Positions 27,951 through 40,413 of a stretch of DNA of 56,352 nucleotides are shown here, one piece after another. Source of the stretch: Bacteroidota bacterium (lineage in GTDB: Bacteria; Bacteroidota; Bacteroidia; J057); assembly GCA_003696835.1 (NCBI GenBank), contig RFHT01000212.1, positions 1 through 56,352 of the forward strand. The letters are read 5' to 3'. The notes beneath the pieces are model-generated. The model did not search any database, was not told where the DNA came from, and was given only the letters and a program-made list of their open reading frames with translations. A program made the translations under genes and the position numbers. Position 1 is the first letter of the stretch. Every line of letters begins with the position of its first letter.

Positions 27951-30266
27951 TCAGTTGTCCCGCCGTATCACAGCAAACTTGCCTATGCAGGGATAGCCAC
28001 CAAACTCATCAGCTATGAGGGCGAGATAAATACCTGACTGTACTTTGCGGCCATATACATCGCGCCCGTCCCAGGTAGCAGTGCCTCCCTGCGACTGTAA
28101 TTCGCGCACCAGCATACCGGAAACAGTGGTGATTTTGATGGTAGCTTTCTCTGAAGAACCGCGTATGGTGATGAGGCCGTCGAAGTCGGTAAATACCGGA
28201 TTGGGGAATACCAGCACCTCCTCGCAGCCCGACTCGCCCTCAGTGGCGTCACTGAGGTAGCTGATGAGACCCGCATCGGTAGCAAAATACACCTCACCGG
28301 TTTGTTGGTCGATGGCGATGTGGTTGACGGTATTGGAAAGCAGGGGGCTGTTTTCGGTGGTAAAATGATGGATGAGTTCATCGCCCTGCCTGCTCACCAG
28401 GTAAGCACCATTACCGGTGCCTATCCATTTGCGGTCGCCTCCATCCACCGCAATGGTGTTGATTATCTCTTCGCGCAGCAGCTTACGGCCTTCAAAAATG
28501 GCGGGGTCGGCGTCAACCACTTTACCCTGTCCGGGGCTGAAGGCATCATAAAACACCATCACCCCTTCACTGGTGCCCACCCAAATAAAACCTTCCTGGT
28601 CTTTGGCCAGGGCATTTACCTCTCCGTTTTGGAGGTTGCCCTGCCCTTCGGGGGCTTTGAGGCTCACTACCACGTCATCCTCCAGCACATCGGGCGTCTG
28701 CTGGTCGTTGTACACCAGCAGTCCATTGCGCTGGTTGATGATCCACTTGGCGCCAAAGTCGTCTATGATCATGTCCAGCATGTGGGCTCCGCTGGGAAAT
28801 AGGCGCTGGGGGATGGTGAACCATTGGCCGTCGGGGGTGAGCATGGCCAGGGCCTCCTGCCCAAAGGCAATGGTCATCCACAGGTTGCCGGCATCGTCCA
28901 TGTCCAGTCCGCTTATGCGAGTTTTGCCAATGTTGGTGGGGTCGCAAATGCCGTCGGTGGTACTGAGCGGTGAGTTTTCACAATCGTAAAAAGCCTGCAA
29001 TTCTCCCTGCTGCAACTTCACCAGCCCCATGCCCCAGCTCCCCATATAAGCCGTACTGCTTTTGCGGTCGTAGTAGCCCCGGGCAAAGCCGGTGTTTACC
29101 CGCTGGGGGTCCAGGCCGCCATTTGCGCGGTTGAGGATTTTCCAGCCGCTCTGCTGGCTGTAATAGTAGATACCGCTGGCATCTCCATCGGGCCCAAAGG
29201 CGGAATTGTAGCCTTTGGGGGCAATGTAAAACTCTCCATTGCCTGCTACTACGCGTATGCTCAGGTTGTTGGTAGGTCCGTCGGGGGTAATGTTTCTCAA
29301 CTCTCCGTTTTGCCAGCGGTCCAGGCCGTTGAAGGCATTGGCCACATAAAAAGCGTCGCCTACCACCAGGGTGTGCTCTACATTGCCCTCGAAAAAGCGG
29401 TCGATACGCTGCCCATCGTTAAAAATGGTGCTGGAACGGCCAATGCGCAGGGCCGACACGGCCTCTTCCTGCACGCTCAGGTGGTCGTGCAGCTCATTGA
29501 AAGGCTCAAAAATGCGCCAGCTCCCGTTTTCCTTCACATACACCGTCTGGTCGGTGCGGGCGTAGAGGGCCCTGGAGTTACTGCCCAATTCCAGCATGCG
29601 CACAGCGGGCGGCAGGCCGTCGGTGCCATTTTCGGTTTGCCAGATGAAGGGGTCGCTCAGGTTGGGGAATTCTTTGCTGGCACTAAGCAGGTTGCCATTT
29701 TCCAACAATACCCACACCCGTCCGTTGTACAGGCTTACCGAAACGGCCGCTTCGCGTGCGGGATTATCTGCAAACTGGGTCACAGTGAATACCGGCAGGC
29801 GGGTACCTAGGCTATATACCACCAGCCCAAACTCGGTGGCTACATAGAGCTGTTCGCCGTCGCTGTCAAACTGGAAGATGCGCTTCTGGGTAAAGAAGGT
29901 GTTGCGTCGGATGTCGCCCAACTGGCTGATTTCGGCCGGGTCGGAAAAGTAGTCGATCATGCCATCGGCGTAGCCGATGAAGATAAGGCCCGTAGCTTTG
30001 TCCAGGTGCATGCTGGTGGCATTGATGCCACTGAGGCCCTCAACGGTAGAAAAGGTGCGTATTTCCTCTCCGGCGTCCTGCCAGCTAAACATGCCCCCCG
30101 TAGTAATGGTATATACCACGCCGTTTTTCTCCACCGAAGTAAGTGCTTTGCGGTGGCTGAGGTAGGCTCTCCAGTCTCCTATGCGGCGGTTGTGCTGGGC
30201 CTGCATGCCCAGGGCTGCACATAGCAGCAGCAGGAGCATAGCCCGGCTATTTATCTTAAACATCAT
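27951..30266 (-). CDS. porZ: PorZ-like type IX secretion component (beta-propeller with C-terminal domain)
   Basis: A 771-residue protein with signal peptide (MLLLLLCAALGMQAQ). The mature start IGDWRAYLSHRKALTSVEKNG and the repeated two-component-regulator-type propeller blades (for example GEEIRTFSTVEGLSGINATS, DDFGAKWIINQRNGLLVYN, GFIWVGTSEGVMVF, DRKWIGTGNGAYLV) match PorZ, the surface protein of the T9SS attachment complex. The C-terminal 80 residues are a sorting-domain-like Ig fold (VFPNPVFTDFDGLITIRGS to FAVIRRDN). PorZ delivers anionic LPS to the sortase PorU in Porphyromonas. The start at 30266 is set by the promoter at 30285-30292; a TTG at 30287 would lie inside it. An alternative is a general two-component-propeller surface protein. 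Confidence 0.75.
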   Translation of the reverse strand: MMFKINSRAMLLLLLCAALGMQAQHNRRIGDWRAYLSHRKALTSVEKNGVVYTITTGGMFSWQDAGEEIRTFSTVEGLSGINATSMHLDKATGLIFIGYADGMIDYFSDPAEISQLGDIRRNTFFTQKRIFQFDSDGEQLYVATEFGLVVYSLGTRLPVFTVTQFADNPAREAAVSVSLYNGRVWVLLENGNLLSASKEFPNLSDPFIWQTENGTDGLPPAVRMLELGSNSRALYARTDQTVYVKENGSWRIFEPFNELHDHLSVQEEAVSALRIGRSSTIFNDGQRIDRFFEGNVEHTLVVGDAFYVANAFNGLDRWQNGELRNITPDGPTNNLSIRVVAGNGEFYIAPKGYNSAFGPDGDASGIYYYSQQSGWKILNRANGGLDPQRVNTGFARGYYDRKSSTAYMGSWGMGLVKLQQGELQAFYDCENSPLSTTDGICDPTNIGKTRISGLDMDDAGNLWMTIAFGQEALAMLTPDGQWFTIPQRLFPSGAHMLDMIIDDFGAKWIINQRNGLLVYNDQQTPDVLEDDVVVSLKAPEGQGNLQNGEVNALAKDQEGFIWVGTSEGVMVFYDAFSPGQGKVVDADPAIFEGRKLLREEIINTIAVDGGDRKWIGTGNGAYLVSRQGDELIHHFTTENSPLLSNTVNHIAIDQQTGEVYFATDAGLISYLSDATEGESGCEEVLVFPNPVFTDFDGLITIRGSSEKATIKITTVSGMLVRELQSQGGTATWDGRDVYGRKVQSGIYLALIADEFGGYPCIGKFAVIRRDN

Positions 30267-30284
30267 AGCTGCTTCTCTTATCGT

Positions 30285-30318
30285 CAAAGGTAGGGTTTAA
30301 GATTTAAACGCAAAAGTA
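30285..30318 (-). promoter_or_regulatory. Promoter region of the PorZ-like gene
   Basis: On the minus strand two TAnnTTTG boxes occur: TACCTTTG at 30285-30292 and TACTTTTG at 30311-30318. With the proximal box the leader is about 13 nt; with the distal box about 40 nt. The TTTG of the distal box could also act as a -33 for the proximal box at N18. Confidence 0.5.
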
Positions 30319-31748: not shown

Positions 31749-32846
31749 CTATTGCTTAACGATTCGCTGAAATCCGAGCCTGTCGCCGTTCTGCACCCGC
31801 AGGAGGTAGAGTGCTGCCGGCAAATTGCGCAATGAAAGGTGATGGGTTTCCCCTGCCAGTTGTTCCGTTTTTACCAATTGGCCGCTTGAATGGTAAATTT
31901 GCACCTGGGCTTCCTCCTGGGGTGATTCGGGCAGGCGTATGGTGAGCTGGTCCGTGGTGGGGTTGGGGAAAAATTCTATGCCTGCTGCCGAAGCTTCTTC
32001 CTCTATATGTACCGAGCCGTCGTCCACCAGCGAATAGGTATGAATCCAGTCCACGTACATGGTATTGATGCTGTCGTTGAGCAGGTCTTGCGGATTGGCG
32101 ATTCCTCCACTCCAGGCGGCGTCAATGGTCCACAAATCCCAAATGATATTCAGGCTTCTGGTAAAATCACGGGTAGTGGTTACACTCCCGGCCGGCTCTC
32201 CATCGAGGTAAAACTGTACGTTGTTTTTGTCTTTCCACCAAACTCCCAGGGTATGGTAGGCTTCATTCCACTTTACGCCTCTGAGGGGGTTGCCTGCTGA
32301 GAGGTTGCGGTTGTCAAAATTTCCTTTTGCGCGTTCATCGTTGCGGTTTACGGTAATAAAGTACTGGGATTGCATCAAATAGGGCCAATCCGTTTTTGAA
32401 GTAATGGAAGGCTTGGAGTTATTTTCACAAATGTCTATTTCATCCCGGTTGTTGATGTCGCCATTGTTCATCCAGAAGGTGTTGTAAGCCGAAATGTGGG
32501 CTGTTTTCATGCTGCACTCGGTGTACATGGGGTAGTTGATCTGCGTTTTGGACCACACCCTGGAAGTTTCAAACCACCTGGTAGAGTTGCTGTCCAGGGT
32601 TGCTTTTATCCAAAGTTTTCCGTCGGTAACGCCGGAGTTTTCAGCCAGCATCTGAACCGGCACCCCGTAATTCCACAGGGATTTAAACCACTTGGTATCA
32701 TCCCAGCTGTCAAATTCGTCGGTGAGGGCAGGCACCACTTCCCATTTCATCCCGGCAGGGGCAGTCGGCTGGCTGAAGACCTGTGTACCAGCCAGCAGGC
32801 AAAAAACAAAAAATGGGGCAAAAGCCCGGATATAGCAGCGTTTCAT
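31749..32846 (-). CDS. Glycoside hydrolase family 16 (agarase-like) with type IX sorting domain
   Basis: A 365-residue secreted enzyme from the ATG at 32846. Signal peptide to about residue 25 (CLLAGTQVFSQ). The GH16 jelly roll has the catalytic ExDxxE as Glu136-Ile-Asp138-Ile-Cys-Glu141, preceded by AYNTFWMNNGD and followed by WDLWTIDAAWSGG. The insertion-free EIDICEN form is closest to beta-agarase/porphyranase-type GH16 rather than laminarinase, so a marine galactan is a likely substrate (inference). Residues about 295-365 form a T9SS C-terminal domain (EFFPNPTTDQLTIRL to FQRIVKQ). A CAAGGGTA box on the plus strand at 32889 (TACCCTTG on minus) may be its promoter. Confidence 0.85.
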   Translation of the reverse strand: MKRCYIRAFAPFFVFCLLAGTQVFSQPTAPAGMKWEVVPALTDEFDSWDDTKWFKSLWNYGVPVQMLAENSGVTDGKLWIKATLDSNSTRWFETSRVWSKTQINYPMYTECSMKTAHISAYNTFWMNNGDINNRDEIDICENNSKPSITSKTDWPYLMQSQYFITVNRNDERAKGNFDNRNLSAGNPLRGVKWNEAYHTLGVWWKDKNNVQFYLDGEPAGSVTTTRDFTRSLNIIWDLWTIDAAWSGGIANPQDLLNDSINTMYVDWIHTYSLVDDGSVHIEEEASAAGIEFFPNPTTDQLTIRLPESPQEEAQVQIYHSSGQLVKTEQLAGETHHLSLRNLPAALYLLRVQNGDRLGFQRIVKQ

Positions 32847-33046
32847 TGAGCTTAGATTTATACAGTTGAGGCACATACTTGCAGCATGCAAGGGTATAAT
32901 TACACATTCTCCATCACCAACGGCAAAGTTTAGCAGCGCTTTTTTCCGTTTGTAGAGTTAATGTACATAAAAACAATCCCCACTTTTTAGCCTGAAAGAC
33001 CAAAAGATTCAATTGTAACTACTACTTCCTCCCAAAGGTTTCCGCC

Positions 33047-33663: not shown

Positions 33664-36264
33664 TTACTGCACCGGCTTTTGATAAATTTCGTGCTGCGGG
33701 TCGCCTCCGGCCAGCAGATAGGCCATGAGGTCGGCAACTTCCTCCTCATTGAGGCGGTTGAGCAGGCCAGGCGGCATGATGGAGATGGGCGAAAGCTCCC
33801 GGCTTTCGATCTGATCCTTCGGAATGCCCACCTTCTGGTTGGGGTCGTAGGGGTTTTGATTGATGAATACTTCAGAATCTGTTTCTTGCAGTACCCTGCC
33901 CACCAGGGTTTTACCGTCCTTGAGGGTAAAATGGGTAGCGGCGTACTGGTCGGTGATGCTGGCACTGGGCGACACCAGGGCCTGTATGATGTCGCCTGTG
34001 GAGAAGCGCGTAGCAATTTGGGTAAGGTCGGGCCCTACATTGCCGCCTTCGCCCCGCATCTGGTGGCAGGCCTGGCAGAGGGCCGCCTGGTACATGCGTT
34101 TACCATTTTCAAAGCTGCGGGCCTCATCCGCTTTTTCGTTCAGTATTTCGCGTATATCACTGGGGTTGTAGTTTTTCCCGGGCCCCTGAGGTCTGGGCAG
34201 TTCAGCCAGGTTGGCTGCAGCCGACTCGTCGTACATACCGGCTATTTCGGCCATTTCGGGGCGCAGGTCTTCGGGCACATTTTCCATGGCCTGCAGGCGC
34301 ACCTGCTCCAAAAATCCCTTAAAGCTCATGCCGCCTTCTGTTTTCATGGCTTCGTAAAACCACTGAAAATAGCGCCTCCTTTGCTCATTGGTCCAGCCCG
34401 ACTTTACATAACTGAGGGTTTTGACGAGAAACAGGTCCTGAGTAGGCGGGCGGTGCTGACTCATTTGGTTAATCACCTCTCCATAGTCATAGCGTTCGAG
34501 GTCGCGGGCGGCTACTTCGGCAGAAATGAGCTGAGGATGCACATCCTGGCTGTCTTCCTGCTCAATGAGGGCCAGGGTTTTTTCGATTACATGCGGAGAT
34601 TCGAGGTAGGCCAGGGTCTGGCAAAGCTCGCGGTTGAGGAAGTCCGAATTGGCCGGGTAGAAGGGCTCCAGTTCCTGGGCGAGGCGCTGCTTCCAGGCGG
34701 GGGCAGGCGGGCCCATGCGGATAAAGAGCAGGTCATACACCCGCAGCAGGTTGAGCTGGTCGGCTTCGGCCAGAGCGCCGAAGTCGAGGCGTGAGAGGGC
34801 CGCCAGGGCGGCGTCCTGCATATCGGGGCTGCCCTGGCGGGCCAGGGCCAGGACGGCATGAATCAAGGCCCGGGGGTCTTTTTCGGAAAGCGCCCGCGCT
34901 TTCCAGCTGTTCACGGGCTGGTGCTCAATGGCTATGCGGGCCGCATAGCGGATAAAGCGGTCGTCGTGGCCAAGGTAGGGCCAGGCAGTATCCACGGCAG
35001 CAGGGTCCTGCCGGTTGTGAAAAGCTTCCAGGCGGTGGCGCAGCGCCCGCAACTCCGCTCCGGTTTCAGTATCTGCTTCAACCGGATCAGTGGGCTCGTT
35101 TCCTGTATAGCTTACCCGGAATACGCGCGAATCCAGCCCTCGCCCACCCGACACCAGGTATAGGGCACCGTCATTGCCCACCACCCCATCGGCCACAGGG
35201 AAGGGCCTCCCGGACAAAAACTCTTCCAGCTCTCCGGTGTAGCTGCTGCCACTGGGATGCAGGTTGACCATGTAAATGGTGCCAAAACTCCAATCGAAGA
35301 TGAACAGGCCCTGCTGATAGCGAGCCGGGAAGGCCGCCCCGCGTCCCATGAGCACCCCTGTGGGTGAGCCCTGCCCCACATCCACCACCGAAGGCAGGTT
35401 GTCGGGGTAGTAGTCAGGCCATTTGCCCGAGCCCGTGCGCCAGCCAAACTCGCTTCCACTCACGGCATGACACAGGCGAATGGGCCGGTACCAGGGAGTA
35501 CCCAGGTCCCATTCCATATCGGAATCAAATACAAACAACTCCCCGGCATCGTTGAAGTCCATGTCATAGGCATTGCGGTAGCCGGCAGAAATGAGCTCCC
35601 ACTCCTTCCCCTCAGGATCGGTTTTGGCTATCCAGCCGCCAGGGGCTTTGATATTGGCTGCATGGCCGCGCGCATCCTTGAAAGGCGGAAAGAGGTTGTC
35701 CTCTCCCCAGTTTTTGGGCAGGCGGGAGGAGAAATGCCCGGGTATTTTGGTGTGGTTGCCTGCAATGAAATAGAGCGATTGGCCGTCGGGGCTCAGGCGG
35801 ATAGCATGGGGGCCGTGCTCCCCCTGGCCATCCAGCTTTACCAGTTCGTCGATTTCATCCAGTTTATCGTCCCCGTCGGTATCCCTCAGGCGGTAAAGCC
35901 CGCTGCTGTGGCCATCTATGCCTTTTCTGCTGTTTACCGACACATACAGGCTGTTGAATGCCCATAACAAGCCCTGTGCATGCCCGATTTCCAGCTCAAT
36001 TTGTTCCACATCTTGCTTGGAAAGCTTTTTACCGGGGGCTGGTGGTTCAAAGCGGTAGAGGTAGCCATCCTGGGCCGAGGCAATCAGTCGCCCCTTTGGA
36101 TCCACCGTAATGGAAACCCAGGACTTCTGTCCCTGTGCACTGGGATGGTAAATTTCTTCTATCTGGAATCCTTCCTGAAGCTGAAATACAGGAGGTTCCC
36201 CACTTTCTGGCTGGCTGCAAGCCAGCAGCAGGCAAAGCAAAAGAGAGAGAAATAATTTGTTCAT
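33664..36264 (-). CDS. Membrane-bound dehydrogenase-type beta-propeller with HEAT region and C-terminal cytochrome c domain
   Basis: An 866-residue lipoprotein (LLLCLLLACSQ). Residues about 25-400 are a PQQ/sorbosone-dehydrogenase-like propeller (ITVDPKGRLIASAQDGYLYRF, RDTDGDDKLDEIDEL, GRAWRTGS-type loops, GRGAAFPARYQQG). A helical HEAT-like region follows (about 400-690). The C-terminal domain holds one c-type haem site CQACH (about 731) in LYQAALCQACHQMRGEGGNVGPD and the LVGRVLQE barrel. This architecture is common in Planctomycetes and Bacteroidota, where it is thought to oxidise a sugar or alcohol periplasmically. It is the last gene of a minus-strand group with a small lipoprotein and a sulfatase. 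Confidence 0.85.
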   Translation of the reverse strand: MNKLFLSLLLCLLLACSQPESGEPPVFQLQEGFQIEEIYHPSAQGQKSWVSITVDPKGRLIASAQDGYLYRFEPPAPGKKLSKQDVEQIELEIGHAQGLLWAFNSLYVSVNSRKGIDGHSSGLYRLRDTDGDDKLDEIDELVKLDGQGEHGPHAIRLSPDGQSLYFIAGNHTKIPGHFSSRLPKNWGEDNLFPPFKDARGHAANIKAPGGWIAKTDPEGKEWELISAGYRNAYDMDFNDAGELFVFDSDMEWDLGTPWYRPIRLCHAVSGSEFGWRTGSGKWPDYYPDNLPSVVDVGQGSPTGVLMGRGAAFPARYQQGLFIFDWSFGTIYMVNLHPSGSSYTGELEEFLSGRPFPVADGVVGNDGALYLVSGGRGLDSRVFRVSYTGNEPTDPVEADTETGAELRALRHRLEAFHNRQDPAAVDTAWPYLGHDDRFIRYAARIAIEHQPVNSWKARALSEKDPRALIHAVLALARQGSPDMQDAALAALSRLDFGALAEADQLNLLRVYDLLFIRMGPPAPAWKQRLAQELEPFYPANSDFLNRELCQTLAYLESPHVIEKTLALIEQEDSQDVHPQLISAEVAARDLERYDYGEVINQMSQHRPPTQDLFLVKTLSYVKSGWTNEQRRRYFQWFYEAMKTEGGMSFKGFLEQVRLQAMENVPEDLRPEMAEIAGMYDESAAANLAELPRPQGPGKNYNPSDIREILNEKADEARSFENGKRMYQAALCQACHQMRGEGGNVGPDLTQIATRFSTGDIIQALVSPSASITDQYAATHFTLKDGKTLVGRVLQETDSEVFINQNPYDPNQKVGIPKDQIESRELSPISIMPPGLLNRLNEEEVADLMAYLLAGGDPQHEIYQKPVQ

Positions 36265-36777: not shown

Positions 36778-38337
36778 TCAATGTTGCTCACTGTCGGGTG
36801 GCAGGGCATGCTGCTCCGGCTCAGGCCTGCTGCTTGCTGTCTGCTGGTAATGCCTCAGCAGTTGCTCCAGTTGGGCCACGCGCCGGGGCGCTTGCAGGTA
36901 CAAGTTATCATTTTCTCCTATATCTTGTGCAAGGTTGTACAATTGTCCCGGAGCTTCCCCTTCTTTAGGCTCATAATTTTTGGGCTGGGAGAAGCCTCCG
37001 GAGCCTCTACTGGGGATCAATTTCCATTCGTTCTTGCGGATGGCAAATTTTCCTGCCAGGGAATGGTGGATGAGGTCGGGACGCACGGCATCGGGCTGCT
37101 GCTTTCCATCCAGGGCAGGCAGCAAGCTGTAGCTGTCTTCGCCTGCCCCTTCGGGCAGGCGGCGGTTGTGCATGTCCGCAAAGGTGGCCATGAGGTCAGT
37201 GAGGCAGGCCAGGGCTGGCGAGGAGCTGCCCGGCATCACCTTTCCGGGCCAGCGCAGCAAAAAGGGGACCCGATGCCCGGCCTCCCAGATGTCGGCCTTA
37301 CGCCCGCGAAAATGGTAGTTGGCCAGGTGCCCATAGGCCTCAATGTCGGAAGGCCGCCAGTCGGCCCCGTTGTCGCTGGTGAGTATCACCAGCGTATTGG
37401 AGCTCAGCTGGAGGCGGTCCAGGGCGTCCAGCACCCTGCCCACGCAGCGGTCCACCTGCACCACGAAATCGCCGTAGCGACCAGCACCGGAAGCTCCCCG
37501 TACCTCCTTGGTGGGCAGCCAGGGTGTATGGGGGGCTGTGAGGGGGAAATACAGCATGAAAGGCTGCTCAGGCTTGTCAGCACGACCCTCCAGGTAGCTC
37601 ACGGCCTTAGCGGTAAGTTGGTCCAGCACTTCTTCAAACACAAAGTCGGAGGCCACATCCCCGTATCGCCAAAAAACGCCCCTGCCGGCCTTGTCGGGAT
37701 AAACTCCCTCCGTAAACTTCATGGGCAGACCCAATACCTGATGGTTTTCCAGGTAGGCATACGGCTGTATATCCAGGGAAGAGGGGATGATGTAGGAATA
37801 GTCAAATCCGTGGCTGTTGGGGCCGTCAGTAACGCCCTGGCTGTAGTCCACATTTACCGAGTCCAGCTGCCAGGCCGGGCCGTAAGTAAGGGGCCTTTCG
37901 GGGTCTTTTTTTACCCAGTTGAGGCCCAGGTGCCATTTGCCAATACAGGCAGTGTGGTAGCCCTGCTGTTGCAACAGGCTGCCAATGGTGAGGCGGCCCG
38001 GCGCAATGAGGGCTGGGTCGTGGCCCACCAGTACACCCGACTTGAGGCGGGTGCGCCAGCAGTAGCGCCCCGTAAGGAGGCCATAGCGCGTGGGCGTACA
38101 TACCGCCGAAGGCGAGTGCATATCGGTAAAAAGCATGCCCTCACTGGCCAGTCGGTCCATGTTGGGCGTGGGGATTTTGGAGTCCGGGTTAAGGCAGCTC
38201 AGGTCACCATAGCCCAGGTCATCGGCCAGGATGATGAGGATGTTGGGAGCAGTTTCCTCCGGCTGGGGAGAATGGCAGGCCATGAGGCAGGCGCCCAGGG
38301 CCAGCAGACACAGCAGGTATCTCTTGGGAAGATTCAT
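36778..38337 (-). CDS. Arylsulfatase, family S1, lipoprotein
   Basis: A 519-residue sulfatase. Lipobox LMACHS. The metal ligands Asp39-Asp40 (ILADDLGYGD) and the formylglycine signature CTPTRYGLLTG with Cys80 in the C-x-P-x-R context are present, followed by GKWHLG (about 130), the usual Lys-His pair. Being Cys-type it needs the sulfatase-maturing enzyme, which is not in this window. S1 sulfatases desulfate algal or host polysaccharides. The gene heads a minus-strand operon with the small lipoprotein and haem dehydrogenase, and faces away from the AGCS transporter across 189 nt. The -7 box at 38363-38370 (TATATTTG on minus) fits a 23-nt leader. Confidence 0.9.
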   Translation of the reverse strand: MNLPKRYLLCLLALGACLMACHSPQPEETAPNILIILADDLGYGDLSCLNPDSKIPTPNMDRLASEGMLFTDMHSPSAVCTPTRYGLLTGRYCWRTRLKSGVLVGHDPALIAPGRLTIGSLLQQQGYHTACIGKWHLGLNWVKKDPERPLTYGPAWQLDSVNVDYSQGVTDGPNSHGFDYSYIIPSSLDIQPYAYLENHQVLGLPMKFTEGVYPDKAGRGVFWRYGDVASDFVFEEVLDQLTAKAVSYLEGRADKPEQPFMLYFPLTAPHTPWLPTKEVRGASGAGRYGDFVVQVDRCVGRVLDALDRLQLSSNTLVILTSDNGADWRPSDIEAYGHLANYHFRGRKADIWEAGHRVPFLLRWPGKVMPGSSSPALACLTDLMATFADMHNRRLPEGAGEDSYSLLPALDGKQQPDAVRPDLIHHSLAGKFAIRKNEWKLIPSRGSGGFSQPKNYEPKEGEAPGQLYNLAQDIGENDNLYLQAPRRVAQLEQLLRHYQQTASSRPEPEQHALPPDSEQH

Positions 38338-38526: not shown

Positions 38527-40413
38527 ATGTTGCAATTTATTGAAGAACTTCTCATAGGTTTTGGAAATGCTGCCTGGGGCACTCCCCTGCTGGTATTGCT
38601 GGTAGGCGGCGGCTTGTTTTTTCTCATTTACTCGCGTTTGTTGCCCTACCGCTATCTGGGTCATGCCTGGGATATTTTGCGGGGCAAGTACGACAAGCCC
38701 GATGAAGAGGGAGACATCAGCCACTATGAGGCACTCTCTACAGCCCTGGCAGCTACGGTAGGGCTGGGCAATATCAGCGGGGTGGCAGTAGCCATGACGA
38801 TGGGCGGGCCGGGGGCATTGTTCTGGATGTGGCTGAGCGCCCTCATAGGGGTGGCCACGAAGTTTTTTACCTGCAGCCTGGCCATCATGTACCGGGGCAA
38901 AGACTCGCTGGGCGAAACCCAGGGGGGGCCTATGTATGTGATTACGGAGGGACTGGGAAAAAAGTGGAAGCCGTTGGCAGTATTTTTTTGCATCGCGGGC
39001 CTCTTCGGCCCCCTGCCTGCATTTCAGGCCAACCAGCTCACCCAAACTATTCGCGACATGCTGCTGTTGCCCAACGGCATACCGGAAAGCTTTATGAGCA
39101 AATTGCTCACAGGCCTGGCCATTACCGCAGTGGTTTCGCTGGTCATCTTTGGGGGGATCAAACGCATAGGCAAAGTGGCAGGCAAGCTGGTGCCCTCTAT
39201 GGTAGCCATCTATGTGCTGGCGGTGCTCTATATCATTTTTACCAACCTGCCCGCAGTGCCGGGTTGTTTTGCCCTCATCTTTGAGGATGCTTTCACGGGC
39301 AAAGCGGTATTGGGCGGGGCTGTGGGTGCCATCATTCTGGCGGGGGTACGCCGGGCGGCTTTTTCCAATGAAGCCGGCATAGGCACGGCTCCCCTGGCCC
39401 ACGGCGCTGCCAAAACCAACGAACCCATACGCGAGGGCCTCATTGCCATGCTCGGACCCATCATAGATACCATCCTGGTGTGTACCATGACCGCCCTGGC
39501 CATTATTATCACGGGTAGCTGGGATGCCAAAGGGCTTGCCTTTACCGGTGAGGGAACCTGGAGAGACTATGAGGTGGAAAGCCGCGTGCGCATACAGGAT
39601 GCCCATACGCAGGCAGGCCTCACAGGCAGGCTCACCGACGCCCATAATTACTACGAATTTATTATCGACAACAAAGGGGAAAGCGCAGCCGTGCTCAACA
39701 AGGTACTCAAAGGCCAGCCCCTGGAGCTGGCCCGCGTGCCTTATCCCATAGAGGCCGGCCAAAACTATCAACTCACGCTTTCTTTTGCTGGGGATAGTAT
39801 CAAGGCTGCGCTCAACGGGCAGACAGTAGCCAGCGTGCGGGATGATAGTTTTACCAGTGGCTTCGCCGGGCTGAAAGCCCGGCATGGCTCCGTCGATTTC
39901 GGGGCTTTCAGGCTGAGCAGCGGAGGGCAGCTACTGGCTGGATACGACTTCAGTAAGTCTGAACAAAAAGCAGCATGGCGTTTTGGCTATGAGGCCAATT
40001 ACTGGAGTGTGGTTCCGGCTGAGGAAGAGACAGAAGAAGCGGGTTTTCTGCAATTTTCAGCCAGCAATGGCATCAGTATTACCCTCAACGCTTTTAGCCT
40101 GGCCATTCCCGGAGCTGGCCCTTACATTTTGCTGCTCTGCATCCTCATTTTTTCCTTCACCACCATGTTTTCCATGTCGTATTACGGTGCCAAATGCTGG
40201 TCATTCCTGGCCGGAGCGCAAAACAAGCATGTTTACAATTTCTTCTACGTAGGCTCCATCATACTGGCATCAGTAGCTTCGCTGGATGCTGTAATAGGGC
40301 TCATTGATGGCATGTACGCCATGATGGCGATTCCTACCATGGTGTCGGCCCTGCTGCTGGCGCCCAAAGTGCGGCAGGCCACAGTAGATTATTTCAAACG
40401 GCTCAATTCCTAA
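38527..40413 (+). CDS. Alanine/glycine:cation symporter (AGCS) with an inserted LamG-like jelly-roll domain
   Basis: A 628-residue protein; ordinary AGCS carriers are about 450-500. The N-terminal part (1-333) is a complete AGCS start: LSTALAATVGLGNISGVAVA, GGPGALFWMW, QGGPMYVITEG, GLFGPLPAFQANQ and SNEAGIGTAPLAHGAAKT, the last being the signature motif. After ALAIIITGSWD the fold is interrupted by about 175 residues (334-510), then resumes with NAFSLAIPGAGPYILL, FTTMFSMSYYGAKCW and the last helices. The insert lies in an extramembrane loop, probably periplasmic, and looks like a concanavalin-A/LamG jelly roll. The carrier part should use a Na+ or H+ gradient to import Ala/Gly or a related small amino acid; the substrate may be altered. 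It is divergent from the sulfatase operon. Confidence 0.88.
   Translation: MLQFIEELLIGFGNAAWGTPLLVLLVGGGLFFLIYSRLLPYRYLGHAWDILRGKYDKPDEEGDISHYEALSTALAATVGLGNISGVAVAMTMGGPGALFWMWLSALIGVATKFFTCSLAIMYRGKDSLGETQGGPMYVITEGLGKKWKPLAVFFCIAGLFGPLPAFQANQLTQTIRDMLLLPNGIPESFMSKLLTGLAITAVVSLVIFGGIKRIGKVAGKLVPSMVAIYVLAVLYIIFTNLPAVPGCFALIFEDAFTGKAVLGGAVGAIILAGVRRAAFSNEAGIGTAPLAHGAAKTNEPIREGLIAMLGPIIDTILVCTMTALAIIITGSWDAKGLAFTGEGTWRDYEVESRVRIQDAHTQAGLTGRLTDAHNYYEFIIDNKGESAAVLNKVLKGQPLELARVPYPIEAGQNYQLTLSFAGDSIKAALNGQTVASVRDDSFTSGFAGLKARHGSVDFGAFRLSSGGQLLAGYDFSKSEQKAAWRFGYEANYWSVVPAEEETEEAGFLQFSASNGISITLNAFSLAIPGAGPYILLLCILIFSFTTMFSMSYYGAKCWSFLAGAQNKHVYNFFYVGSIILASVASLDAVIGLIDGMYAMMAIPTMVSALLLAPKVRQATVDYFKRLNS
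39526..40056 (+). other. Jelly-roll (LamG/concanavalin-A-like) insert inside the AGCS transporter
   Basis: The segment encodes residues 334-510 of the transporter. It is beta-rich and has the usual signature order of this fold: GTWRDYEVESRVRI, AGLTGRLTDAHNYYEFII, LNKVLKGQPLELARVP, PIEAGQNYQLTLSFAGD, IKAALNGQTVASVRDDSF, GFAGLKARHGSVDFGAFRL. After that come YDFSKSEQKAAWRFGY and YWSVVPAEEE, which look like strands normally found at the start of such domains. No frameshift separates it from the carrier parts; both borders are in frame and the codon character is continuous. Confidence 0.7.

Follow-up and report, generated by a model that had tools for sequence, protein, structure and literature searches.

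The gene at positions 38527..40413 (+) of the window (the whole stretch of 56,352 nucleotides that was analysed) very probably encodes an intact AGCS carrier with a jelly-roll domain inserted in the loop between TM7 and TM8 (EL4). AGCS is the sodium:alanine symporter family, whose members couple the import of alanine/glycine-like amino acids to Na+. The window is contig C343 of a fragmented metagenome-type assembly (6.19 Mb, 842 contigs, 89% complete), and the relatives of this genome are Bacteroidota. The gene was assigned from its open reading frame (628 residues, zero internal stops) and from profile matches, and it was divided into three parts: an N-terminal carrier part from the first helix to the end of the LeuT-type TM7 (residues 1-333; 38527..39525 (+)), the inserted segment in EL4 (residues 334-511; 39526..40059 (+)), and a C-terminal carrier part from the EL4b helix and the LeuT-type TM8 to the end (residues 512-628 and the stop codon; 40060..40413 (+)).

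The transporter core is intact. The family profile PF01235 matched the 628-residue protein in two stretches (399 bits in total; cut-off, 24), of which the first covers residues 57-340 and the second lies in the C-terminal part, and TIGR00835 matched residues 17-622 (397 bits; cut-off, 273) with the entire model (1-424) covered. Identity with orthologs was 60-76% for the N-terminal part and 48-63% for the C-terminal part, the latter diverging no faster than it does in the orthologs themselves. The window protein had 0 deviations at the 133 positions where at least 95% of 49 orthologs agree; 102 of these positions are invariant, and all 102 were retained. In the AlphaFold model (50-row alignment), the pLDDT of the carrier core, including the N-terminal part, was mostly >90. 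When this model was searched with Foldseek, the top match was AgcS of Methanococcus maripaludis (6CSE/6CSF; TM 0.91 by target length for 6CSE), which has the whole transmembrane core and the LeuT-type fold in common with the window carrier. The 6CSE chain was aligned to carrier residues 13-337 and then 513-617; on the AgcS side the match breaks at 331 and restarts at 334, whereas the window carrier has 178 residues between. Thus, by family profile, by core residues, and by the AgcS/LeuT fold, the protein belongs to AGCS, and the sequence-only reading, which described the AGCS signature and helices as intact and in one frame around the insert, was right on this point. The carrier is probably an active transporter.

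The bounds of the insert were taken from the ortholog alignment, in which it comprises 178 residues (534 bp), in frame, nearly as first proposed (residues 334-510; about 175 residues), and the carrier sequence restarts after it at the next expected residue. The orthologs have 2-10 residues at this site, and nearly all of them have 3, as does L036 (SW-QDASESGINIT). The G+C content of the insert differs between the codon positions (0.62/0.45/0.58), as it does in coding DNA. The tetramer GCCA occurs at the left edge (39526..39529 (+)) and again directly past the right edge (40060..40063 (+)), and the flanks joined at a single GCCA copy give GSWDASNGISIT, which is ortholog-like. Since GCCA is a common tetramer, this repeat is a weak sign and only hints at microhomology joining. 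Transposition was considered and rejected; the longest match between the junction regions was 7 bp, lay off the edges, and was as expected by chance.

The location of the insert was assigned from the helix order mapped onto the LeuT fold: one extra helix, the LeuT-type TM1 (with GLGN), TM6 (with SNEAG), TM7 (to residue 329), the insert, a short helix (515-526), and TM8 (from 531). On this basis, we infer that the insert sits in EL4 on the extracytoplasmic side, that is, in the periplasm, which agrees with the extramembrane loop proposed from the letters. In the LeuT fold, EL4 faces outside and forms a lid that moves above the outer vestibule as the carrier goes through its transport cycle. EL4, which links TM7 and TM8, has been described as a moving lid in LeuT and SERT, and antibodies bound to EL4 of SERT change the transport cycle (PMC8253976). 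A large extracytoplasmic domain on a LeuT-fold amino-acid carrier is also found in the complexes of ACE2 with B0AT1 or SIT1 and of 4F2hc with LAT1; however, in those complexes the domain is a separate polypeptide, whereas in the window carrier it lies within the lid loop.

The insert columns were left out of the phylogenetic tree of the carriers (154 rows, some of which represent one locus from two collections). In this tree, the window gene was nested in a 115-row clade, of which the other 114 rows lack the insert. In a sister AGCS clade (22 rows, one of which is cut by a contig end), an insert was present at the same loop (71-155 residues where complete), with a single origin (SH-aLRT 96). 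The sequence-only reading had taken a short loop as normal for AGCS; this stood for the 114 clade rows and did not stand for the sister clade, in which large unrelated inserts are common. A profile of the sister inserts gave -0.6 bits on the window insert, a score equalled by 209 of the 377 reported shuffles, as against 43 and 54 bits on held-out true members. Consequently, although the sister clade has its 71-155 residues at the same site, it is extremely improbable that the window insert is an ordinary EL4 extension of AGCS diverged past recognition: it has no similarity to the sister inserts, the gene sits in the other clade, and the remaining rows of its own clade are without any extension. 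The claim that the insert differs from an ordinary family extension was therefore upheld by a search for the very match that would contradict it.

The sister-clade carriers (L023, L026, L028, L145-L162) thus share with the window gene the family and the insertion point, and one member, L001, belongs to the window genome itself; however, their inserts are unrelated in sequence to the window jelly roll, clade-wide, and older, and three examples had no Pfam match. Because the two kinds of insert are unrelated, EL4 of AGCS has, from these sequence comparisons, gained domains at least twice. Some details of other AGCS genes are recorded here. Three AGCS genes were found in the window genome, all with additions outside the usual core. 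L001 (G000:C111) has the clade-wide EL4 extension, and the gene is cut by a contig end. L003 (G000:C443) has a signal-peptide-like N-terminus and roughly 170 residues ahead of the first core helix, a region without a significant Pfam match; an N-terminal addition of this type recurs in L014, L015, L025, and L027. The sister-clade member L145 (G198:C3:20900-23700) has an EL4 insert of 155 residues, without a Pfam match, in which a motif resembling F-Y-[LV]-D-E-x-x-[ST]-x-T-F-[NT]-G-x-I occurs twice.

A jelly-roll insert in other AGCS carriers was found in none of the 12 family genomes, the 396 phylum genomes, or the best 80 loci of the genome-contig collection, and a second copy of the insert was not found in its own genome. 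Scans of the genome-contig and viral-contig collections with the insert found no donor. Within its own genome, the nearest domain to the insert query was found on contig C567, in a protein with tandem DUF1080 domains (27% identity, E=0.11). A tandem PF06439 pair in a single lipoprotein-like protein is encoded at G000:C567:17106-18185 (L167, L239), and a total of 17 PF06439 matches were counted in the window genome. The event looks like a recent one-off domain insertion, private to the window genome among the genomes searched. No AGCS carriers with inserted domains were found in the literature searched, and we are aware of no LeuT-fold transporter described with an entire domain inserted in its moving lid.

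An insert seen once in an assembly of 842 contigs, with a close relative found nowhere, might also have been produced by the assembler, which would have joined a piece of another gene into the carrier gene. We consider this very unlikely, since the reading frame is kept across both junctions, the segment measures exactly 178 codons, the one loop concerned is that in which the sister clade also has inserts, and there is no second copy in the genome to mislead the assembler; the continuation of the carrier at the next expected residue also speaks against such a fault.

As to the identity of the insert, sequence comparisons confirmed that residues ~338-465 (39538..39921 (+)), the jelly-roll body, belong by homology with the CBM66/DUF1080 branch of the concanavalin-A-like jelly rolls. 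The profile and homology matches exceed chance and cover this part of the insert only. The motifs named in the sequence-only reading are all present (NYYEF at 374, LNGQTVASVRDD at 429, and GFAGLKA at 445), and its assignment to a LamG/concanavalin-A-like domain was correct as to the concanavalin-A-like jelly roll and incorrect as to LamG proper, the closest relatives being of the CBM66/DUF1080 type. PF06439 (cut-off, 26.8 bits) gave 27.3-28.3 bits on the insert or the body (27.3 bits in the Pfam search of the insert), 27.9 bits in the genome scan, and 24.4 bits on the whole protein; the alignment spans profile positions 41-181 of 187, and positions 1-40, the N-terminal strands, are unmatched in the insert. 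With phmmer, the single insert sequence matched CBM66 of levanase at E=0.004, and a profile of the insert and six homologs matched it (4B1L, chain residues 44-161) at E=6e-9. Overall, the matches of the insert to characterised families amounted to 27-40 bits.

A six-frame search of 396 phylum genomes yielded homologs of the insert in other Bacteroidota (best E=1.4e-10 to 1e-4), most of which stand at the N-terminus of calcineurin-like phosphatase proteins and have ~28% identity. The proteins concerned (L169-L173, L175) are those that we take, from reading their sequences, to be calcineurin-like phosphatase proteins; they start with a CBM66/DUF1080-type jelly roll like that of the insert. The alignment of the seven sequences (the insert and its homologs) keeps G, W-x-DY, G, R, YY, D, D, and G-x-x-G. 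These phosphatase-protein jelly rolls are the nearest relatives found and have the G, W-x-DY, R, YY, D, and G-x-x-G residues in common with the insert; however, they are N-terminal domains of apparently exported proteins, and their first strands, unlike those of the insert, follow the canonical order. CBM66 of Bacillus subtilis levanase SacC (4B1L, 4AZZ, 4B1M) likewise has a homologous jelly-roll core, but it is an appended module of secreted enzymes with N-terminal strands preceding the core, whereas the window domain lies inside a membrane carrier and its N-terminus is without them. The two characterised members of CBM66 bind polysaccharides (fructans, xanthan) (PMC11002231).

The DUF1080 proteins include proposed periplasmic 3-keto-glycoside hydrolases and 3-keto-disaccharide hydrolases, and some have glycosidase activity (PMC9007349). 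Together with the match to PF06439 just over the cut-off and the number of PF06439 matches in the window genome, this raises the possibility that the insert is itself catalytic, a 3-keto-glycoside hydrolase or lyase acting beside the carrier. From the profile comparison this appears very unlikely, as the first ~40 profile positions are missing, the true members of the family (PF06439/DUF1080, BT2157 type) in the genome score far higher (up to 194 bits), CBM66 and the N-terminal domains of the phosphatase-like proteins are closer relatives, and the carrier moves amino acids, not sugars.

The first canonical strands of the jelly roll are missing at the N-terminus of the insert, and the insert tail (residues 466-511; 39922..40059 (+)) had no detectable relative in the profile and sequence comparisons. 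A circular permutation, in which the tail would represent the first canonical strands, was examined with three profiles and was not supported. Rotation of the insert raised the PF06439 score from 27.3 to 32.8 bits, and seven shuffled tails reached 28.5-32.1 bits; the score of the rotated insert was reached by 50 of 1000 shuffles with a local DUF1080 profile and by 241 of 1000 with a profile of the phosphatase domains. As far as the sequence goes, the tail might still supply the missing first strands. For the insert, of which no close homologs were found, AlphaFold predicted nothing but strands, with a pLDDT of 33.7 when the insert was modelled alone and mostly <50 in the full model; the prediction is thus uninformative on the fold and does not speak against a jelly roll.

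The neighbourhood of the carrier gene was also considered. Upstream, 36778-38337 (-) encodes a sulfatase, 33664-36264 (-) a cytochrome-c protein, and 31749-32891 (-) a protein that has a type IX sorting tail and shows a weak ConA-like match. Downstream are a zinc-ribbon protein (-) and, on the strand opposite to the carrier, genes that we presume to encode NIF3-like, IF-2, and NusA proteins. In six related loci, the orthologs adjoin neither the sulfatase nor the cytochrome-c protein nor any other neighbour that was tested; a link of the carrier to sulfated glycans is therefore unsupported, and the divergent sulfatase operon, which had been offered as evidence, loses its weight. Substrates of the glycopeptide or amino-sugar kind, also proposed, were not supported. 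No Rfam families were found near the carrier gene. Separately, 27951-30287 (-) of the window encodes a PorZ-like component of type IX secretion (PF21544, 69.5 bits), which also matches a C-terminal sorting domain weakly, and this gene, with the sorting tail encoded at 31749-32891, suggests a type IX secretion system.

As for the role of the insert, we tentatively favour a jelly roll that serves on the lid as a module for docking a glycan or a partner in the periplasm, at somewhat less than even odds. An importing carrier core with a lid-borne docking module is, as a whole, the best explanation that we can infer, although it too falls a little short of an even chance. An in-frame gain of 534 bp has placed a CBM66/DUF1080-type jelly roll in the TM7-TM8 loop. 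By this explanation, the core would still use Na+ to import a small amino acid such as alanine or glycine, and the jelly roll, standing on the EL4 lid, would dock a periplasmic glycan or protein partner. Docking could hold the carrier near the release of its substrate, for example, at the breakdown of peptidoglycan or of oligosaccharides and peptides, and a bound ligand could bias the lid, which in turn could alter the transport rate. Since the sister clade has an independent insert at EL4, this position tolerates and keeps additions. The occurrence in one genome, the lack of a neighbourhood link, the first strands, which are missing or come from the unmatched tail, the low scores against characterised families (27-40 bits), and the low pLDDT of the insert are points against docking. 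The sensing or capture role put forward from the letters is a guess.

Given a single example, a neutral insertion is almost as likely as docking. A foldable domain might have entered a permissive external loop by illegitimate recombination and might have no particular role, having simply not yet been lost; we regard this as a serious possibility that also does not reach an even chance. It would fit the presence of the insert in one genome only and in no relative of the same family, the acceptance of other inserts by EL4 in the sister clade, the neighbourhood that is not conserved, the carrier core without any sign of change, and, weakly, the GCCA at both edges. However, the insert has kept the residues conserved among the jelly rolls and an open frame of 178 codons despite the nearest relatives being only ~28% identical, so that the domain has either been maintained for long or come from an unsampled donor.

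A further form of the docking explanation is a lid-gated symporter, in which the jelly roll, by binding a glycan or a peptidoglycan fragment in the periplasm, would directly open or lock EL4; this is improbable. If it were true, amino-acid import would be conditional on the ligand, and a sensor would stand inside the moving gate of a LeuT-fold symporter. For comparison with the inserted form, many orthologs with the empty site are available in the lineage. Both independent insertions mark EL4 in the AGCS family as a site that naturally accepts periplasmic domains, and EL4 suggests itself as a place of attachment for a sensor on a symporter, which raises the question of whether binding on the outside can gate import.
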